DNA of 64,000 nucleotides, from the NCBI RefSeq assembly GCF_013745115.1, contig NZ_CP051151.1, positions 1,302,001 to 1,366,000 of the forward strand, in the 5' to 3' direction. A program made the position numbers and the translations under genes. This document shows positions 5,883-42,497 of the stretch, one piece after another. The DNA is from Hujiaoplasma nucleasis (GTDB lineage: Bacteria > Bacillota_I > Bacilli_A > Izemoplasmatales > Hujiaoplasmataceae). A model generated the notes under the pieces. The model made no database searches. It saw nothing but the letters and a program-made list of their open reading frames with translations, and was not told the origin of the DNA. Positions within the stretch are counted from its first letter, which is position 1, and the number at the start of each line of letters is the position of its first letter.

Positions 5883-6375
5883 GATTTGGACATTTATAAA
5901 AAAACATTTTTTAACTAGGAAATTCATTACTTTTGGAATTATAGGTGTTGTAAATACATTAATACATATGTTGGTGTATGGTTTGATTTATAATTTGTTG
6001 AGTGATCAAACAAACTATTTATCTGCGATGATTGCTTTTATAGCTAATGCTATTGCTTTTGTTTCAGCATCAACATTTTCATATTTTGCTAATGCTTATT
6101 TCACCTTCAAACCCAAACATAAAACCACAGTACAGTTTTCAGCAGTAATTTTAGTTTTTCTTGCAAGATGGCTGGTCTCTAGTTTAATGGCTGCTGGTTT
6201 TGATTATACGGTTGTTCATTGGATAGGATTAGATTATGAAATATATCCTCTAGCAAAATATATCGCACCATTCTTAGCTTCAGCTTTGTTAATTCCTGTG
6301 GCTTATTTAGCATTAAATATTGTATTTAAGAAAACAAGTGATATTAAAGAAAATCAAAATAAACAAGGGGTGTGA
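5875..6375 (+). CDS. gtcA: GtrA/GtcA-family flippase-like membrane protein
   Basis: 166-residue protein with four membrane helices (about 17-40, 49-73, 84-106, 125-148) and the GtrA-family opening FxxFGIIGVVNTLIH. GtrA/GtcA proteins are thought to flip polyprenyl-phosphate-linked sugars to the outside, completing a synthase/flippase/transferase trio with the two genes before it. The start is TTG at 5875, with GGAGG at 5861-5865 nine bases upstream; the upstream TTG at 5848 has no such site. The gene overlaps the glycosyltransferase by 8 bases. Confidence 0.85.
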   Translation: MNKIWTFIKKHFLTRKFITFGIIGVVNTLIHMLVYGLIYNLLSDQTNYLSAMIAFIANAIAFVSASTFSYFANAYFTFKPKHKTTVQFSAVILVFLARWLVSSLMAAGFDYTVVHWIGLDYEIYPLAKYIAPFLASALLIPVAYLALNIVFKKTSDIKENQNKQGV

Positions 6376-6380
6376 TTGAC

Positions 6381-7130
6381 ATGAATGAATTTTATATATC
6401 AGTAACTATTGCGTATTTATATAGTATCTTTCTTATTAATTTAAGAATGAAACTAGAAACCAAACAGATACGTTTTTTAAAAATATTATTGCTGGTATTA
6501 ACTATTTTTTCAGTGTCGACATTCTTTAAATATGCAAATACCTTATCTGGGTGGGGATTATATACAGAGATTTTAGCTTTAATCACTTTGTTTGTATTTT
6601 TTGGAGCGACTTACTGTAATGAGATTAAATCTGTTTATAAGAAGATTTCATCTAATAAAATAGATACATCACCAAGACTTATTGATAATGAATTAGCTGT
6701 TGCTTTAATTCAATCGGTTGATTATTTATCGAAAAGAAAAATTGGAGCTCTTATTACAGTTGAAAGATCCATTCGCCTTACCAACATTATTGACAATGCA
6801 TTGATGATTAATGCTGATGTATCAAAAGAATTGCTTACATCGATATTTATTCCTTCAACTCCATTACATGATGGGGCGGTAATCATAAGGGATAATAAAA
6901 TTTTATGTGCTAAGGCTTATTTTCCTGCTTCAGATAGAACTGATTTACCAATGAACTATGGTACAAGACATAGAGCCGCTATCGGTATTAGCGAACATTC
7001 AGATGCTTTCACAATCGTTGTTTCAGAAGAAACTGGTAGAGTCTCTGTAACAGTGGATGGTAAGATGGAATACAATGTGACTAAAGAAGCACTTAATTTG
7101 TACTTAGAAAACATTTTAAAAATCAATTAA
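6381..7130 (+). CDS. cdaA: membrane diadenylate cyclase (CdaA/DacA-type)
   Basis: Makes c-di-AMP from two ATP. Three N-terminal membrane helices (about 4-20, 32-49, 62-79) precede a DisA_N domain with both catalytic signatures, DGA (164-166, in LHDGAVI) and RHRAA (196-200). The ATG at 6381 is chosen over GTG at 6372 because the AAGGGG site (6365-6370) suits only the former. The gene starts 5 bases after the gtcA stop and so belongs to the surface glycosylation operon. The usual regulator CdaR is not adjacent. A terminator follows directly. Confidence 0.9.
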   Translation: MNEFYISVTIAYLYSIFLINLRMKLETKQIRFLKILLLVLTIFSVSTFFKYANTLSGWGLYTEILALITLFVFFGATYCNEIKSVYKKISSNKIDTSPRLIDNELAVALIQSVDYLSKRKIGALITVERSIRLTNIIDNALMINADVSKELLTSIFIPSTPLHDGAVIIRDNKILCAKAYFPASDRTDLPMNYGTRHRAAIGISEHSDAFTIVVSEETGRVSVTVDGKMEYNVTKEALNLYLENILKIN

Positions 7131-35910: not shown

Positions 35911-36465
35911 ATGAAACAAATTTTTATTGATTCTGCCAAGACTATCATTAAAGAAAAGGGTTTAAAATTTGTATCTGCTAGAGAAATTTCTAAAATATCT
36001 GGTTATAGTTACACAACATTGTATAATTACTTTGAAAACATCGATTCATTGTTAACTTATGTTGCTGTAGACTATTTAGAAGAATCTTACCAAGAAATGC
36101 TTCAAGCGCTTAAGGGAACAAATGATATTAAGAAAAAGATTATTGTAGCATCTAAAACTTATTTTTCATTCATGTATAATCATCCCTCTATTTTTAAAAT
36201 AGTTTTTATTAATGATTTTGGAGTAGAAGTTGAAAGTATGTCCTATAAGCTTATACCTAAAGTAACTATATTGTTAAGAGAGTTACTAAAGGATTTAAAG
36301 GATAGGCAAATCACTTTAGATAGAGATATATTATTTGAATTGATTTCAAGTTCAATCCACTCAAAATTAATGTTCGCTATTTTCAAAAGAAGTCCTATAA
36401 AATATGACGATTTACTAATGATGATTGAAAAAGAATTGAATATATTAATAGGTGATATCAAATGA
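35911..36465 (+). CDS. TetR-family transcriptional regulator
   Basis: 184 residues from ATG 35911. N-terminal TetR helix-turn-helix (AKTIIKEKGLKFVSAREISKISGYSYTTLYNYFENIDSLL), then a helical ligand-binding domain with no recognisable ligand. The strong AGGAGG (35877-35882) lies 28 bases before this ATG, far too distant. In frame, an ACG at 35890 sits at ideal spacing and would add TTIKNER, the usual kind of TetR N terminus, so the original start may have been ATG at 35890. It heads a three-gene unit and probably represses itself through the tandem repeats. Confidence 0.87.
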   Translation: MKQIFIDSAKTIIKEKGLKFVSAREISKISGYSYTTLYNYFENIDSLLTYVAVDYLEESYQEMLQALKGTNDIKKKIIVASKTYFSFMYNHPSIFKIVFINDFGVEVESMSYKLIPKVTILLRELLKDLKDRQITLDRDILFELISSSIHSKLMFAIFKRSPIKYDDLLMMIEKELNILIGDIK

Positions 36466-36476
36466 AATAGAGAATA

Positions 36477-36851
36477 ATGATTTTCCTAGGTATTTTTATA
36501 GGTTTTGTATCTATAATAGCATTAACAATGTACATTAAAATCAATCAAAATGCTGATAAGATATTGGATAACGAGATTGAAGAAGTCGATTTAAAAGAAG
36601 TAGAGGATGGTCTATATGAAGGCGAATACTATTCTGAAGGCATAGGTTTAATAGTACATGTAGAAGTAAAAAACCATGAAATTATTAGCATTGAATATGA
36701 AAACCATCAATACGGACAAGGGTACAAAGCAGAAGCTATAAAAGAATCAATTATCCATTCACAATCGGTTTTAGTTGATGATGTGTCTGGAGCGACAATT
36801 TCCAGTCGTTGTATTAAATTAGCGATCATAGATGCGTTGAAGGAGGCATAA
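36477..36851 (+). CDS. membrane-anchored FMN-binding domain protein
   Basis: 124 residues: one N-terminal membrane helix (1-19), then an FMN-binding domain (about 45-122) of the kind found in RnfG/NqrC and exported flavoproteins. The covalent attachment motif is DDVSGATISS, where the Thr of SGAT normally carries FMN via ApbE. The ribosome binding site is weak and the ATG lies 11 bases after the tetR stop. It is followed 3 bases later by a flavodoxin gene, suggesting a small electron-transfer pair. Confidence 0.85.
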   Translation: MIFLGIFIGFVSIIALTMYIKINQNADKILDNEIEEVDLKEVEDGLYEGEYYSEGIGLIVHVEVKNHEIISIEYENHQYGQGYKAEAIKESIIHSQSVLVDDVSGATISSRCIKLAIIDALKEA

Positions 36852-36854
36852 GTT

Positions 36855-37322
36855 ATGAATAAAATATTATTAGTGTATGCAAGCAAAAAAGGGATGACAG
36901 AAACATTGGCTGAACTTATAAAGGAAGATTTAGGTCAAATAGATTTAGTAAATATTAATGAAAAACAAGCAGACCCAAAACTTTATGACAAGATTATTAT
37001 AGGTAGCCCTATATATATAGGAAAGATTCATAAAAAAATTAAAGCATGGATTCAACAGAACCAAGATAGCTTATTATCAAAAACCACTGCTGTGTATTTA
37101 TGCGGTATGAACTTTAACGAAGAAAAACAAGTTATAGAAAATAATTTTACTAAATCAGAGATTAACCATCTCTTCATCAAATACTTAGGTGGGGCATATA
37201 GATTTGATCGTTTGAATTTTTTAGAGAAATTTATGATCAAAAAGATTACTGGAGAAAGTCAATCAAGACAAGAGATTCATCAAGACGTTTTTAAGGAACT
37301 TATTTCTTATATACAAGCTTAA
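36855..37322 (+). CDS. flavodoxin-domain protein (HemG-like)
   Basis: 155 residues. FMN-phosphate loop ASKKGMTETLAE at residues 9-20 (T/S-x-x-G-x-T pattern) and GSPIYIGKIHKKI after strand 3, as in flavodoxin-domain oxidoreductases related to HemG (protoporphyrinogen oxidase/menaquinone-dependent). Given the neighbours it probably passes electrons to the adjacent membrane FMN protein. AAGGAGG site before the ATG; terminator after. Confidence 0.85.
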   Translation: MNKILLVYASKKGMTETLAELIKEDLGQIDLVNINEKQADPKLYDKIIIGSPIYIGKIHKKIKAWIQQNQDSLLSKTTAVYLCGMNFNEEKQVIENNFTKSEINHLFIKYLGGAYRFDRLNFLEKFMIKKITGESQSRQEIHQDVFKELISYIQA

Positions 37323-37343
37323 AGAGGAGATATCCTCTTTTTT
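37321..37343 (+). terminator. terminator after the flavodoxin gene
   Basis: 8-bp stem AAAGAGGA/TCCTCTTT, GATA loop, T-run. Confidence 0.85.
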
Positions 37344-37421
37344 ATTAGATATTTATCTAATTATATCTATTTTTTTGGGCAATACCTAATAAAGTTTAAA
37401 AAAATTAGATAAATATCTAAT
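37344..37421. repeat. paired inverted 19-bp operator-like palindromes
   Basis: ATTAGATATTTATCTAATT (37344-37362) recurs exactly as its reverse complement at 37403-37421. Each copy is itself a near-perfect dyad with 7-bp arms, TTAGATA-nn-TATCTAA. The centres are 60 bp apart and the second copy ends 7 bases before the -35 at 37429. They are probable binding sites for the ArsR-type regulator encoded at 39233-40294. Confidence 0.75.
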
Positions 37422-37428
37422 ATTCTAC

Positions 37429-37457
37429 TTGACATTTGATAGATATCGATTTATAAT
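37429..37457 (+). promoter_or_regulatory. strong promoter of the peptide/MFS/ArsR operon
   Basis: TTGACA (37429-37434), 17-bp spacer, TATAAT (37452-37457), a full consensus match. The spacer contains TAGATATCGAT, which resembles half of the flanking operators. Confidence 0.88.
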
Positions 37458-37500
37458 ATAATTGCCTAAGAAGATAAGAGTGTTATTAAGGAGTGATTTT

Positions 37501-37665
37501 ATGATTCAAAATGAATGTTGTTTGATTGACACGTTTGAAAAACTTCAAGTTTTGCATAAGTCCATTCACTTAAATACTATTAAATATATCCATGAAGTAT
37601 ATTACAAGAAACATAAACTTGTAAATCGTTTAAATCATAAAGGAGGTAGTGGAGATGAAAAATAA
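37501..37665 (+). CDS. small protein, first gene of the peptide/MFS operon
   Basis: 54 residues from ATG 37501, which has AAGGAG 8 bases upstream; an in-frame upstream start at 37462 would lie only 5 bases past the -10. Starts MIQNECCLIDTFEKL; rich in H, K and Y, with Cys6-Cys7 adjacent, and ends in KGGSGDEK. The last codons encode the ribosome binding site (GGAGG) of the next peptide, and the two ORFs overlap by 11 bases. Unrecognised. Confidence 0.6.
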   Translation: MIQNECCLIDTFEKLQVLHKSIHLNTIKYIHEVYYKKHKLVNRLNHKGGSGDEK

Positions 37666-37765
37666 TAAGAATACACATCAAGAACATAGCGTTTATGTAT
37701 TAGATTTTATGAATACAGCTCAAATAACTTATTGGGATCAATTTAAGAACCATAATAATAAATAA
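37655..37765 (+). CDS. 36-residue peptide, copy A
   Basis: Short ORF MKNNKNTHQEH... ending at TAA 37763-37765, behind AGGAGG at 37641-37646. It is 22/36 identical to the second peptide at 37814 with no gaps, with shared SVYxLDxxNT and TYWDQFK. That pattern, with third-base changes and conservative swaps (V/M, F/L, I/L), shows selection at protein level. It has no signal peptide, no Cys and no Gly-Gly leader. Function unknown: a secreted or signalling peptide, a binding partner of the transporter, or a leader peptide are all possible. Confidence 0.72.
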   Translation: MKNNKNTHQEHSVYVLDFMNTAQITYWDQFKNHNNK

Positions 37766-37813
37766 GTGATATATATTGTGGTTTATTAAAGAATTAATCA
37801 AAGGAGGAAAATG

Positions 37814-37924
37814 ATGAAAAATAAAAATAATACTCGTCAAGGGAATTCTGTTTATATGCTTGATTTATTAAATACACCACAGTTAACATATTGGGATCAG
37901 TTTAAAGATCAAGATAAAAAATAA
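37814..37924 (+). CDS. 36-residue peptide, copy B (paralogue of copy A)
   Basis: Short ORF MKNKNNTRQGN... with AAGGAGG (37801-37807) 6 bases before ATG 37814 (ATG 37811 is an alternative). It shares the S-V-Y-x-L-D-x-x-N-T and T-Y-W-D-Q-F-K core with copy A. Its stop overlaps the Shine-Dalgarno of the MFS gene that starts 11 bases later, so it is coupled to the exporter. Tandem duplication with its own RBS argues for a product made in quantity. Confidence 0.72.
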   Translation: MKNKNNTRQGNSVYMLDLLNTPQLTYWDQFKDQDKK

Positions 37925-37935
37925 GGAGTCTTTTT

Positions 37936-39243
37936 ATGAATAAGAAATTACTAAAAAATAAAAACTATATGTTATTGGTGATAGGGAATTTTGTTTCCTT
38001 AATTGGAAGTAATATTCAACAGTTTGTTTTATCCTTATATGTTTTAGCCTTAACAGGATCGGCGACAATATTCGCTTCTATGTTGGCTATTTCTATTTTA
38101 CCTAGGATTTTATTATCACCCATAGCAGGTGTTTTTGGAGATTGGTTTGACAAGAAAAAATCAATTGTGATTTTAGATATTACTAACGCCCTTGTATTGC
38201 TGGCATTTGGTATATATGTTTATTTATATAATGATTTAACCATTGGTTTAATCTACTTATTGGTTATTTTGTTAGAAATCACTGAAATTTTCTTTCATTC
38301 TTCTATGTCAGCGGTTATACCATCTGTTGTACAAGAGGATGAATATTTAGAAGCTAATTCTTTAAGAATGATGCTTGTATCTTTTGGCCAACTTTTGGCA
38401 CCTGTTTTTGGGGCTTTAATCTATGGAGCTTTTGGCTTATTGGTTGCCATTTTGATTAATGCTTTATCATTCTTTTTATCGGCTCTTAGTGAAATGTTCA
38501 TTAAAGTCCCAAAAACAAAAAGTGAATCAAATGTTAGATCAGTTTCTGGCTTTAAGAAAGATTTTTCTGAAGGTATTATATTGGTTAAGCATTCAAAACC
38601 TATTAGAACCATTATGGCCATGGCAGTTATTGTTAACTTTTCCATTTCGCCTTTCTTTTCTGTAGGACTTATCTTTTTGTTAAAAGAAGTATTGGTTCAA
38701 TCAGATATGAGGTTGGGTTTATTGCAAACAGTATTATCGGCATCAATGATTTTGGCTCCGATACTCTTATTAAAAAAATTAAAAACAATGAGACTTGGGG
38801 ATGTCTTAATGAAAAGTTTCTTTATTATGGGGACATTAATAGTCTTAATATCTTTCAGTATACATTCCAGTTTAGCAAGTTTAGCTGATGGGTTAGCGTC
38901 TTATATTTATGTCTTAGTGATCTGTTTTATCATCGGAATCTTGGTGACTGGTGTTAATATTTCAGTAGGAACTCTTATTCAAAAAATCGTACCTTTAGAA
39001 TTTATGGGAAGAACATCAACGGTTTTAGGATTATTTTCTACCATAGCAATTCCAATTGGACAGATGATTTTTGGTTACTTATATGATATTATAAATCCAG
39101 GCTTTGTTTTTATTCTCAATGGATTGGTTATTTTAGGGACAGTTCTTTTCTTTTACAAGAGAATGCACCTTATTGATGATTATGACAAAGAAGAAGTTAA
39201 AGAAAATTTAGTGGAAAGAAGTGTGTTAGTCAATGAAATTTAA
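37936..39243 (+). CDS. MFS efflux transporter
   Basis: 435 residues with about twelve membrane helices, of the MFS_3/macrolide-efflux-like group. Features: the N-terminal NFVSLIGSNIQQFVLSLYVL helix, the loop motif GVFGDWFDKKKS between helices 2 and 3, and a mid-protein cytoplasmic loop (about 190-215). The substrate is unknown; it could be a drug or the small peptides encoded upstream. AAGGAG at 37923-37928. The last 11 bases overlap the regulator gene. Confidence 0.85.
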   Translation: MNKKLLKNKNYMLLVIGNFVSLIGSNIQQFVLSLYVLALTGSATIFASMLAISILPRILLSPIAGVFGDWFDKKKSIVILDITNALVLLAFGIYVYLYNDLTIGLIYLLVILLEITEIFFHSSMSAVIPSVVQEDEYLEANSLRMMLVSFGQLLAPVFGALIYGAFGLLVAILINALSFFLSALSEMFIKVPKTKSESNVRSVSGFKKDFSEGIILVKHSKPIRTIMAMAVIVNFSISPFFSVGLIFLLKEVLVQSDMRLGLLQTVLSASMILAPILLLKKLKTMRLGDVLMKSFFIMGTLIVLISFSIHSSLASLADGLASYIYVLVICFIIGILVTGVNISVGTLIQKIVPLEFMGRTSTVLGLFSTIAIPIGQMIFGYLYDIINPGFVFILNGLVILGTVLFFYKRMHLIDDYDKEEVKENLVERSVLVNEI

Positions 39244-40294
39244 ATTTAACGAAGATGTATCAAGGATTTATGATTATTTGTTATTTCCAAGACTTTATTT
39301 TTACAAGTATGATTATGAAGAAAATAAGAACGATGACTTGAAAAGTGTGATTCATGAACAATATTTAGAAATGGCTGAAAGATTAAATGAAAAATTAAAG
39401 CCATATGAAAAAGAAATATCTCAATATTTTCAAAAAAGTATTTATTCAAGTTATGACTATCCTAATATTTTGACACATGCATTCCCTGTCGAAGGATACA
39501 CTGATGAACATCAATATTTAGAAAGTATTTTAGATGTAGATGATTCTGAATTTAAAGATAAACTTATTAAATCTTTGGTTACCATGGAAGATGATGAAGA
39601 TGAAAAAATATCAGTAGATGAATTAAATTCAACTGAGTATATTAATAACTTAAAGATTGATTCAGCTAATAAATGGAATTTATTTTTGATGGTTCAAAAT
39701 CCAAAGAAATATTTAAAAGATTATATTGTTTTCTTGAAAACAGTTGAACCATTATTTTATAATACATATAATCAATTTAAGGATGAACTTATTGAAGTTG
39801 GGATGGATATTTCTGCTAGGTTGTCAAAAAATACTGCTCAATCATTTAAGAAAATAACTCAAAATTTAATTAATTATGAATTTTCTAATCGCGAAGTTTG
39901 TAACTTATATGTATCAGCTATGTTTCCTTATTCTGTAAGATTAATGGGAGACCACAGAATCGTATGGGGATTAAAATCTGAATTTTCATTTAAGAAAGTA
40001 AGTGAAATCAATGAAAACCAACTTAGTCAAAGGGTTAAAATTTTTAAAGCTTTAGGTGATAAAACTCGCTATGAAGTTTTAAAAATGATTTCAAATGGAC
40101 ATAGTTCTATAAAAAATATTGCTGAGAAATTAGATGTATCAAGCGCAACAATTTCTTATCATGTCAATGAATTTTTAACGACAGGAATCATAAGTATTAA
40201 TAGAGATAAAGATAAAAAGGCTGGTTATAGAATTGATTATCATAAACTAAATGAGGTTATAAGCGGTTTAAAAGAAGATTTAAATTTTGAATGA
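39233..40294 (+). CDS. ArsR-type regulator with large N-terminal domain
   Basis: 353 residues. The C-terminal winged helix (about 266-345: RVKIFKALGDKTRYEVLKMI, recognition helix SSATISYHVNEF at 303-314) is ArsR-like. The metal-binding ELCVC motif is absent and the only cysteine nearby is C223, so it is not a metal sensor of the usual kind. The 260-residue N-terminal helical domain is unrecognised and is presumably the sensor. It overlaps the MFS gene and should control the operon through the 19-bp palindromes upstream. Confidence 0.8.
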   Translation: MKFKFNEDVSRIYDYLLFPRLYFYKYDYEENKNDDLKSVIHEQYLEMAERLNEKLKPYEKEISQYFQKSIYSSYDYPNILTHAFPVEGYTDEHQYLESILDVDDSEFKDKLIKSLVTMEDDEDEKISVDELNSTEYINNLKIDSANKWNLFLMVQNPKKYLKDYIVFLKTVEPLFYNTYNQFKDELIEVGMDISARLSKNTAQSFKKITQNLINYEFSNREVCNLYVSAMFPYSVRLMGDHRIVWGLKSEFSFKKVSEINENQLSQRVKIFKALGDKTRYEVLKMISNGHSSIKNIAEKLDVSSATISYHVNEFLTTGIISINRDKDKKAGYRIDYHKLNEVISGLKEDLNFE

Positions 40295-40298
40295 GATG

Positions 40299-40332
40299 AT
40301 GATATGGAGTGAATACTTCATATCATTTTTTT
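40299..40332 (+). terminator. terminator of the peptide/MFS/ArsR operon
   Basis: 12-bp stem with one G-T pair (40299-40310 with 40315-40326), GAAT loop, T-run. Confidence 0.88.
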
Positions 40333-41217: not shown

Positions 41218-41240
41218 AAAAGGACAATTTTTGTCCTTTT
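41218..41240. terminator. bidirectional terminator
   Basis: 10-bp stem AAAAGGACAA/TTGTCCTTTT with a TTT loop between convergent genes. Confidence 0.87.
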
Positions 41241-41475
41241 AGTTTGCTTTGATTAAAGCACTTATTTCTTCATTTTCTAATAATTTTCCACTTGAAACAA
41301 CTTTATCATTGATGACCATGGCTGGAGTAGATAAAACATTATAAGCTGATATTTCCATCATATCTGTGACTTTTTCTACTTGAGCCTCAATGTTTTCTTT
41401 TCTTAATACGTCTTTGATTCTTGTTTCTAATCTTTGACACTTTTTACATCCTGAACCTAATACTTTAATTACCAT
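41239..41475 (-). CDS. small thioredoxin-like protein
   Basis: 78-residue thioredoxin-fold protein with redox pair C10-x-x-C13 (GSGCKKC) and cis-Pro in STPAMVINDKVV. This compact type is commonly encoded beside ArsP/UPF0718 permeases, as here (11 bases after the permease stop). It probably reduces or loads the permease or its substrate; this is inference. Confidence 0.88.
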   Translation of the reverse strand: MVIKVLGSGCKKCQRLETRIKDVLRKENIEAQVEKVTDMMEISAYNVLSTPAMVINDKVVSSGKLLENEEISALIKAN

Positions 41476-41486
41476 TTGTTGCCTCC

Positions 41487-42497
41487 TTATATAAATATAT
41501 ATTCAAAAATATTAAATAAATAACCTGTGATGATAATACCAGCTGTTACAATACCCACAAATGTGAGAAGCAGTTTAAATTTAACGACTTTCTTGAGTAG
41601 AATTAAAGATGGTAGACTTAATGCTGTAACAGCCATCATAAAGGCTAATACAGTTCCTATACCAACGCCTTTTAATACCAAAGCTTCAGCGATAGGTAGG
41701 GTTCCAAATATATCAGCATACATTGGGATTCCTATAATTGTTGCGATAAATACAGAGAACGGGTTTTCTTGTCCAAGAACTTTTGAAATTATTTCTTCTG
41801 GGATATATCCGTGTATTATGGCACCAATACCAACACCTATGAATATATAAATCCAAACTCTATGAATGATTTCTTTAACTTGGTCAAAAGCATAAAGACG
41901 TCTTTCTTTTTTTGTGAGTTCTGGGTTTTCTATATCAATGCTTTCTTTGTTTTTTGTTACAAATTCTTCAACATATTTATCCATCTTAAAAATTGATATC
42001 AGTGTGCCCCCAATAACTGCGATAATGATACCAACAACTACATAAGCTAGTGCAATGGTCCAATTGAAGATACTAGCAAGTAAAATGACGGAAGCTAAAT
42101 CAACAAGCGGAGAAGATATAAGAAATGAGAAAGTTACCCCTACAGGTAAACCGGCTTTAGTAAAGCCAATAAAAATAGGAATAGAAGAACATGAACAAAA
42201 AGGGGTAAGTGTGCCTAAGAGTGCACCAACAATATTGGCTTTAACACCTTTAATTTTAGATAGTATTTTTCTTGTTCTTTCGGGTGTAAAGTAACTTTGT
42301 ATATAAGATGATATGTAGATTAATATTGATAATAATAAGAAGATTTTTATAACATCATATATGAAAAAAGATAAGCTTGAAAATAACATTGTGCTTTCAT
42401 CTATTTGAAACCATTCTCTAAGTATATATTGGACTGCAGATTCCAGCCATGTCATTTTTAAGAAAATATCATTAATAGTGATAAAAAAATCTTTCAT
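41487..42497 (-). CDS. permease of the ArsP/UPF0718 family
   Basis: 336 residues, about eight to nine membrane helices. Family signature GTLTPFCSCSSIPIFIGFTKAGLPVGVTFSFLISSPL (first half), repeated in weaker form in the second half (GIPMYADIFGTLPIAEAL). Relatives export organoarsenicals or are of unknown substrate. A GAGGTG site precedes the ATG. No ArsR gene lies in this unit. Confidence 0.88.
   Translation of the reverse strand: MKDFFITINDIFLKMTWLESAVQYILREWFQIDESTMLFSSLSFFIYDVIKIFLLLSILIYISSYIQSYFTPERTRKILSKIKGVKANIVGALLGTLTPFCSCSSIPIFIGFTKAGLPVGVTFSFLISSPLVDLASVILLASIFNWTIALAYVVVGIIIAVIGGTLISIFKMDKYVEEFVTKNKESIDIENPELTKKERRLYAFDQVKEIIHRVWIYIFIGVGIGAIIHGYIPEEIISKVLGQENPFSVFIATIIGIPMYADIFGTLPIAEALVLKGVGIGTVLAFMMAVTALSLPSLILLKKVVKFKLLLTFVGIVTAGIIITGYLFNIFEYIFI

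Follow-up and report, generated by a model that had tools for sequence, protein, structure and literature searches.

Two tandem ORFs of 36 codons at the head of an efflux operon of Hujiaoplasma nucleasis zrk29 are real, selected genes, predicted from their substitution patterns and ribosome-binding sites to be translated, and they belong to a family of micro-ORFs that heads two operons sharing no downstream gene, in both cases directly 5′ of the first membrane-protein gene. Our preferred reading, to which we give a chance slightly short of even, is that the products are cis-acting leader peptides, the translation of which would tune the genes behind them. H. nucleasis zrk29 (CP051151) is a wall-less, free-living, deep-sea bacterium with kin in the Izemoplasmatales (PMC10470597), and the window referred to below is the whole stretch of 64,000 nucleotides of its chromosome that was analyzed (positions 1,302,001 to 1,366,000 of NZ_CP051151.1).

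The preliminary description of the operon listed a promoter, a 54-aa ORF, twin 36-aa ORFs, an MFS exporter gene, an ArsR-type gene and a terminator, all of which were found. The promoter, TTGACA-17-TATAAT (37429–37457, plus strand), matches at 12 of 12 positions and is the sole full match in the 4.1 kb scanned. It is followed on the same strand by ORF1 (54 aa, 37501–37665), the stop of which overlaps the start of peptide A (36 aa, 37655–37765), by peptide B (36 aa, 37814–37924), the stop of which lies 11 nt 5′ of the exporter start, by the gene for a TIGR00900/Mef-like MFS exporter (37936–39243) and by that for a large ArsR-type regulator of 353 aa (39233–40294); an intrinsic terminator with 13 pairs (40298–40327, plus strand) ends the operon. 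Peptides A and B are indeed identical at 22 of 36 positions (61%) without gaps, each preceded by a Shine-Dalgarno (SD) sequence, and the dN/dS between them, a check proposed at that stage, was 0.15. ORF1 was tried as a third conserved gene and dropped: strain zrk2 has a 45-aa ORF in the corresponding place, but the two sequences share no detectable similarity.

Small ORFs escape routine annotation. A single-sequence search of 200 relatives gave a convincing E-value only for the 2 copies of zrk29 itself; the family was recovered by going from the regulator gene to the adjacent exporter and reading upstream, and a profile built from synteny was required. Homologous ORFs of 30–49 aa occupy the equivalent position in 6 related Izemoplasmatales/Tenericutes genomes: those upstream of the exporter in G028, G023, G001 (strain zrk2) and G002 carry YW(D/G/S/E)QF, and similar ORFs precede the exporter in MO-XQ and OKU6. 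Thus, the homologues that had been predicted near MFS/ArsR genes are present, the genomes being zrk29, zrk2, HGW-Tenericutes-5, STD2_259, MO-XQ, OKU6 and G002. The profile re-finds the window pair and the homologues in the relatives, the best E-values per genome reaching 1e-18, and of the above-background matches in the 34 family genomes nearly all fall at 2 syntenic loci. A scan of the zrk29 genome with the YWxQF pattern gave 10 sites, and the SD-led ORFs at conserved loci among them were the 4 family peptides only.

Conservation is sharpest between positions −7 and +3 around the tryptophan, with an information content of 2.8 bits at P(−4), 2.8 at Y(−1), 4.7 at W(0), 2.4 at Q(+2) and 2.5 at F/V/L(+3), and falls to about 0.1–0.9 bits in the tail after +3. 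The core SVYxLDxxNT proposed earlier is limited to H. nucleasis; that of the family is P-x-x-Y-W-x-Q-(F/V/L), or, with its first position, (C/N)P-x-x-YW-x-Q-(F/V/L). Because codons at conserved residues differ synonymously (e.g., CAA/CAG, TTT/TTC), it is the amino acids and not the bases that are conserved. The dN/dS was 0.14–0.43 in 13 of 17 peptide pairs, which are not independent of each other; the other 4 gave 0.56, 0.69, 1.07 and, in one case, no synonymous changes. By part of the Trp-aligned family, dN/dS was 0.15 in the core, 0.49 in the N-terminus and 0.36 in the tail. A purine-rich, SD-like stretch lies at the expected place in 33 of the 34 ORFs analyzed, the exception being the zrk2 copy behind an insertion: in that strain an IS110-like element apparently separates the 2 peptides of the MFS operon (L054, 1900–3720), and the second peptide has lost its SD. 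Even from sequence alone, then, the family hangs together: its core is sharp, selection is clear, and it has two fixed genomic contexts, all this in a wall-less bacterium that lives freely and can be cultured.

The family is narrowly distributed. In searches at the level of family (34 genomes), order (90), class (395) and phylum (392), confident peptide matches were limited to its own family and to the genomes MO-XQ and OKU6; divergent members in genus g10 and further members in g6 were located by position. A single-peptide search of plasmid and phage collections gave no significant match. Pfam, NCBIfam, PHROGs, PADLOC and the open-access text hold no family resembling the YWxQF peptides, and the window leader has no match in Rfam, so that the label "unrecognised" given to the operon at the outset stands in these resources.

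The second conserved locus lies behind uvrB, where 1–4 peptides precede genes for VanZ, DUF2089, a SHOCT-like protein and an RNA methyltransferase. It carries peptides in zrk29 and about a dozen relatives; some genera add an MFS gene, and the loci of genus g1 are without an exporter. The second pair of zrk29 starts at position 1429118 of the chromosome (6119–6383 of G000:C1:1423000-1436000, L181), and its final peptide overlaps the vanZ start. A promoter and micro-ORFs were seen between uvrB and vanZ only in genera g1, g6 and g10; in g2, g3, g7, g8, g9 and g11, uvrB abuts or overlaps vanZ and peptides are absent. Apart from this insert with its own promoter, the locus is like the DUF2089/SHOCT envelope-stress neighborhoods, sets of genes that have been proposed as membrane-stress analogues of PSP (PMC11237479). 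The promoters of the VanZ operons (L181–L189, L228, L247, L248) share a TTGATATAAT(T/A)AAGGTGTAAGTTA-like sequence extending past the −10, which suggests an unknown operator or an initially transcribed element. The VanZ proteins of g1, g6 and g10 carry a second, fused domain; its match in other genera is encoded by a gene of its own (L181 6376–7152 compared with L250–L264).

The exporter and regulator of the first operon have a history of their own. The MFS–ArsR pair is far commoner than the peptides, occurring in Haloplasma, Tissierellia, Clostridium and others, and an operator, TTAGATA-N2-TATCTAA, was found in 30 of 33 such loci with a readable exporter start, beginning 23–24 nt 5′ of the −35 in all 17 aligned promoters. 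In the window, the proximal operator O1, ATTAGATAAATATCTAAT (37404–37421), conforms to most MFS–ArsR promoters, with its 16-mer starting 24 nt 5′ of the −35. A distal palindrome, ATTAGATATTTATCTAAT (37344–37361), matches the motif at 14 of 14 positions as its second copy; the two 18-bp palindromes are spaced 60 bp apart. A half-similar and weak O2, TTTGATAGATATCGAT (37435–37450; 11 of 14), lies in the −35/−10 spacer, where a TT-GATA element recurs in relatives. The twin operators that had been described are therefore both present, but of the two just the proximal operator keeps its position across loci, and this one is general to MFS–ArsR operons. In peptide-free loci, the operator mostly lies 76–88 nt 5′ of the exporter, too short a distance for an ORF, and the MFS operon of the congener G004 also has no peptides. 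Since the MFS–ArsR genes and their operator exist without peptides in Clostridia and others, the peptides appear to be a lineage-specific insertion into two operon leaders and accessory to the function of the exporter. The recurring operator and its spacing in peptide-free loci make a strong circumstantial case for binding by the regulator and for a later arrival of the peptides, and the ArsR-type protein is likely to be an autoregulator acting at O1/O2. The regulator gene does not belong to the peptides in particular, the same gene pair and operator being widespread without them.

Like the ArsR/SmtB repressors, the regulator combines a winged helix with a palindromic candidate operator at its own promoter. 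In the structural model (pLDDT 89), the winged helix is C-terminal (PF12840/PF01022; Foldseek matches to 6j05, 2oqg and CzrA), whereas the added N-terminal domain of ~266 aa sets the protein apart; modeled alone (pLDDT 89.5), this domain had no PDB match by Foldseek, and its sequence had none in PDB either. The operon thus reveals an ArsR-type regulator with an orphan, putatively sensory domain and with a well-defined operator, whose conservation reaches from the wall-less bacteria into Clostridia. The exporter resembles MFS_1/TIGR00900 Mef-type efflux proteins in matching PF07690 and TIGR00900, but scores 218 bits against the curated TIGR00900 cut-off of 319.6 and 87 bits against the Mef(A) cut-off of 675, far under those of Mef(A)/(B)/(C).

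How might one peptide family serve two such operons? Because they have no downstream gene in common, any common partner must be a general one, and the simplest candidate is the ribosome that translates the leader. Specifically, we propose that a micro-ORF module with the core CP-x-x-YW-x-Q-F was inserted into the 5′ leaders of an autoregulated MFS drug-efflux operon and of a VanZ–DUF2089 membrane-stress operon. In the last copy, the YWxQF core lies 31–52 nt before the next start in most loci; a ribosome translating this core, or pausing at it, would raise or lower the frequency with which the exporter or VanZ gene is translated. To the transcriptional control by the ArsR-type protein this would add an input at the level of translation, possibly from a ribosome-acting inhibitor. 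Such cis action is favored by the tight coupling (stop-to-start distances of −29 to +24 nt in 11 of 13 loci, motif-to-start distances of 31–52 nt in 9 of 13), the short core with a variable tail, the placement at operon heads and the resistance-type genes behind. A core so sharply conserved, with higher dN/dS on either side, is what one would look for in a nascent-chain signal, the downstream functions, drug efflux and membrane stress, suit the model, and in G002 a second copy of promoter, 3 peptides and MFS and ArsR genes (L071, 2600–5300) has decayed jointly, the peptides as far as the operon. SD, dN/dS and position are consistent with leader peptides in the sense of short ORFs directly upstream of a candidate regulated gene, with one positional exception, in G003 C78. 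Of the three proposals in the preliminary description, tandem leader peptides are the best fit.

Several observations weaken the leader-peptide reading. Folding of 13 loci against shuffled sequences gave z below −2 in 3 only, the window among them (z = −2.3), and no conserved RNA switch, terminator or masked SD was found across the 13; for this reason we do not class the peptides as a classical attenuator, which would need such a switch. A simple attenuator also needs neither 1–4 copies nor A-type and B-type peptides kept as distinct orthologues. In G003 C78 (L190, 3816–3945, minus strand), a family peptide ends an unrelated transcription unit of an HTH_3 gene and a 120-aa repeat gene and is followed by a terminator-like hairpin and then by no gene. 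Finally, in part of genus g6 (L186, L228, L243, L245), the codons for YW-x-x-VY in the last peptide contain the vanZ start codon and its SD, so that a pause there would hide the start rather than free it.

Among the known devices, the family, undescribed in the resources searched, most resembles leader peptides. With ErmBL/ErmBL2, ErmCL and MsrDL it shares, as known here from sequence alone, short SD-led ORFs that head a resistance operon and in which a variable tail comes after a small number of conserved residues; attenuators with two leaders have been described for ermB (PMC8274638), compared with up to 4 copies here. The YWxQF peptides differ in being longer (30–49 aa), in forming one sequence family that heads two unrelated operons and in having no conserved SD-masking RNA structure. 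Like MifM and CliM (KYxIW, PMC13183943), they place an upstream ORF with a conserved Trp-containing motif before a membrane-protein gene; unlike them, they have no transmembrane segment, their motif is not C-terminal, and an efflux pump or VanZ, not YidC, lies behind. If the core pauses ribosomes, it would add a sequence-unrelated arrest motif and a case of one leader-peptide family across two unrelated stress operons. A bolder form of the idea, which we hold to be rather unlikely, is a new class of nascent-chain sensor in the Izemoplasmatales, in which 1–4 diversified copies of a CPxxYWxQF arrest core, ahead of unrelated efflux and membrane-stress operons, would each respond to a membrane signal or ribosome-acting signal of its own.

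The peptides could instead work in trans, as stable cytosolic microproteins. They would dock through CPxxYWxQF to a common partner (a regulator, the ribosome, or an insertase or protease of the membrane), and their expression alongside resistance genes would reflect a part in the same stress response. We regard this as possible, though well short of probable. The whole ORF is under purifying selection, at a lower level in tail and N-terminus, each copy has a strong SD of its own, A and B orthologues are kept distinct across species, and the G003 C78 copy has no gene to control; if so, the peptides would be a new microprotein family. On the other hand, they are almost strictly bound to the two operon leaders, a free-standing conserved locus is absent, the MFS operon of G004 does without them, and in G002 they decay with their operon. 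In the narrow sense first proposed, that of a transporter-associated microprotein, the idea is disfavored by the VanZ–DUF2089 operon, which the same peptides head.

Secretion is harder to reconcile with the two contexts. The tandem, variable copies adjoin the genes of an exporter and of a regulator that has a large orphan domain, which raises the possibility of a secreted signal or antimicrobial peptide, for which the MFS protein would be the exporter and the ArsR-type protein either the sensor or a regulator of immunity. The VanZ operon of g1, however, carries the same peptides and no exporter, the exporter and regulator are much more widespread than the peptides, neither a signal nor a hydrophobic segment is seen in the peptide sequences, and maturation, processing and modification genes are absent nearby, making this reading improbable. 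Least credible, and in our estimate very nearly dismissible, is that the ORFs are spurious or the degenerate leftovers of some longer gene, for instance of the part encoding the N-terminus of a lincosamide nucleotidyltransferase. This idea arises from a single weak NCBIfam match of the window peptides to Lnu(E) (E = 0.01), which no other family member tested gives, and in PDB vinculin outscores it; dN/dS and the SDs across species also speak against it. Kinship with the Lnu enzymes was accordingly rejected.

On its 5′ side, the MFS–ArsR operon of the window is preceded by one with TetR, FMN-binding and flavodoxin-like genes (35911–37322), closed by a terminator at 37321–37340; on its 3′ side, the minus strand encodes an ArsP_1-type permease adjoining a small CxxC thioredoxin-like protein (41239–42497).
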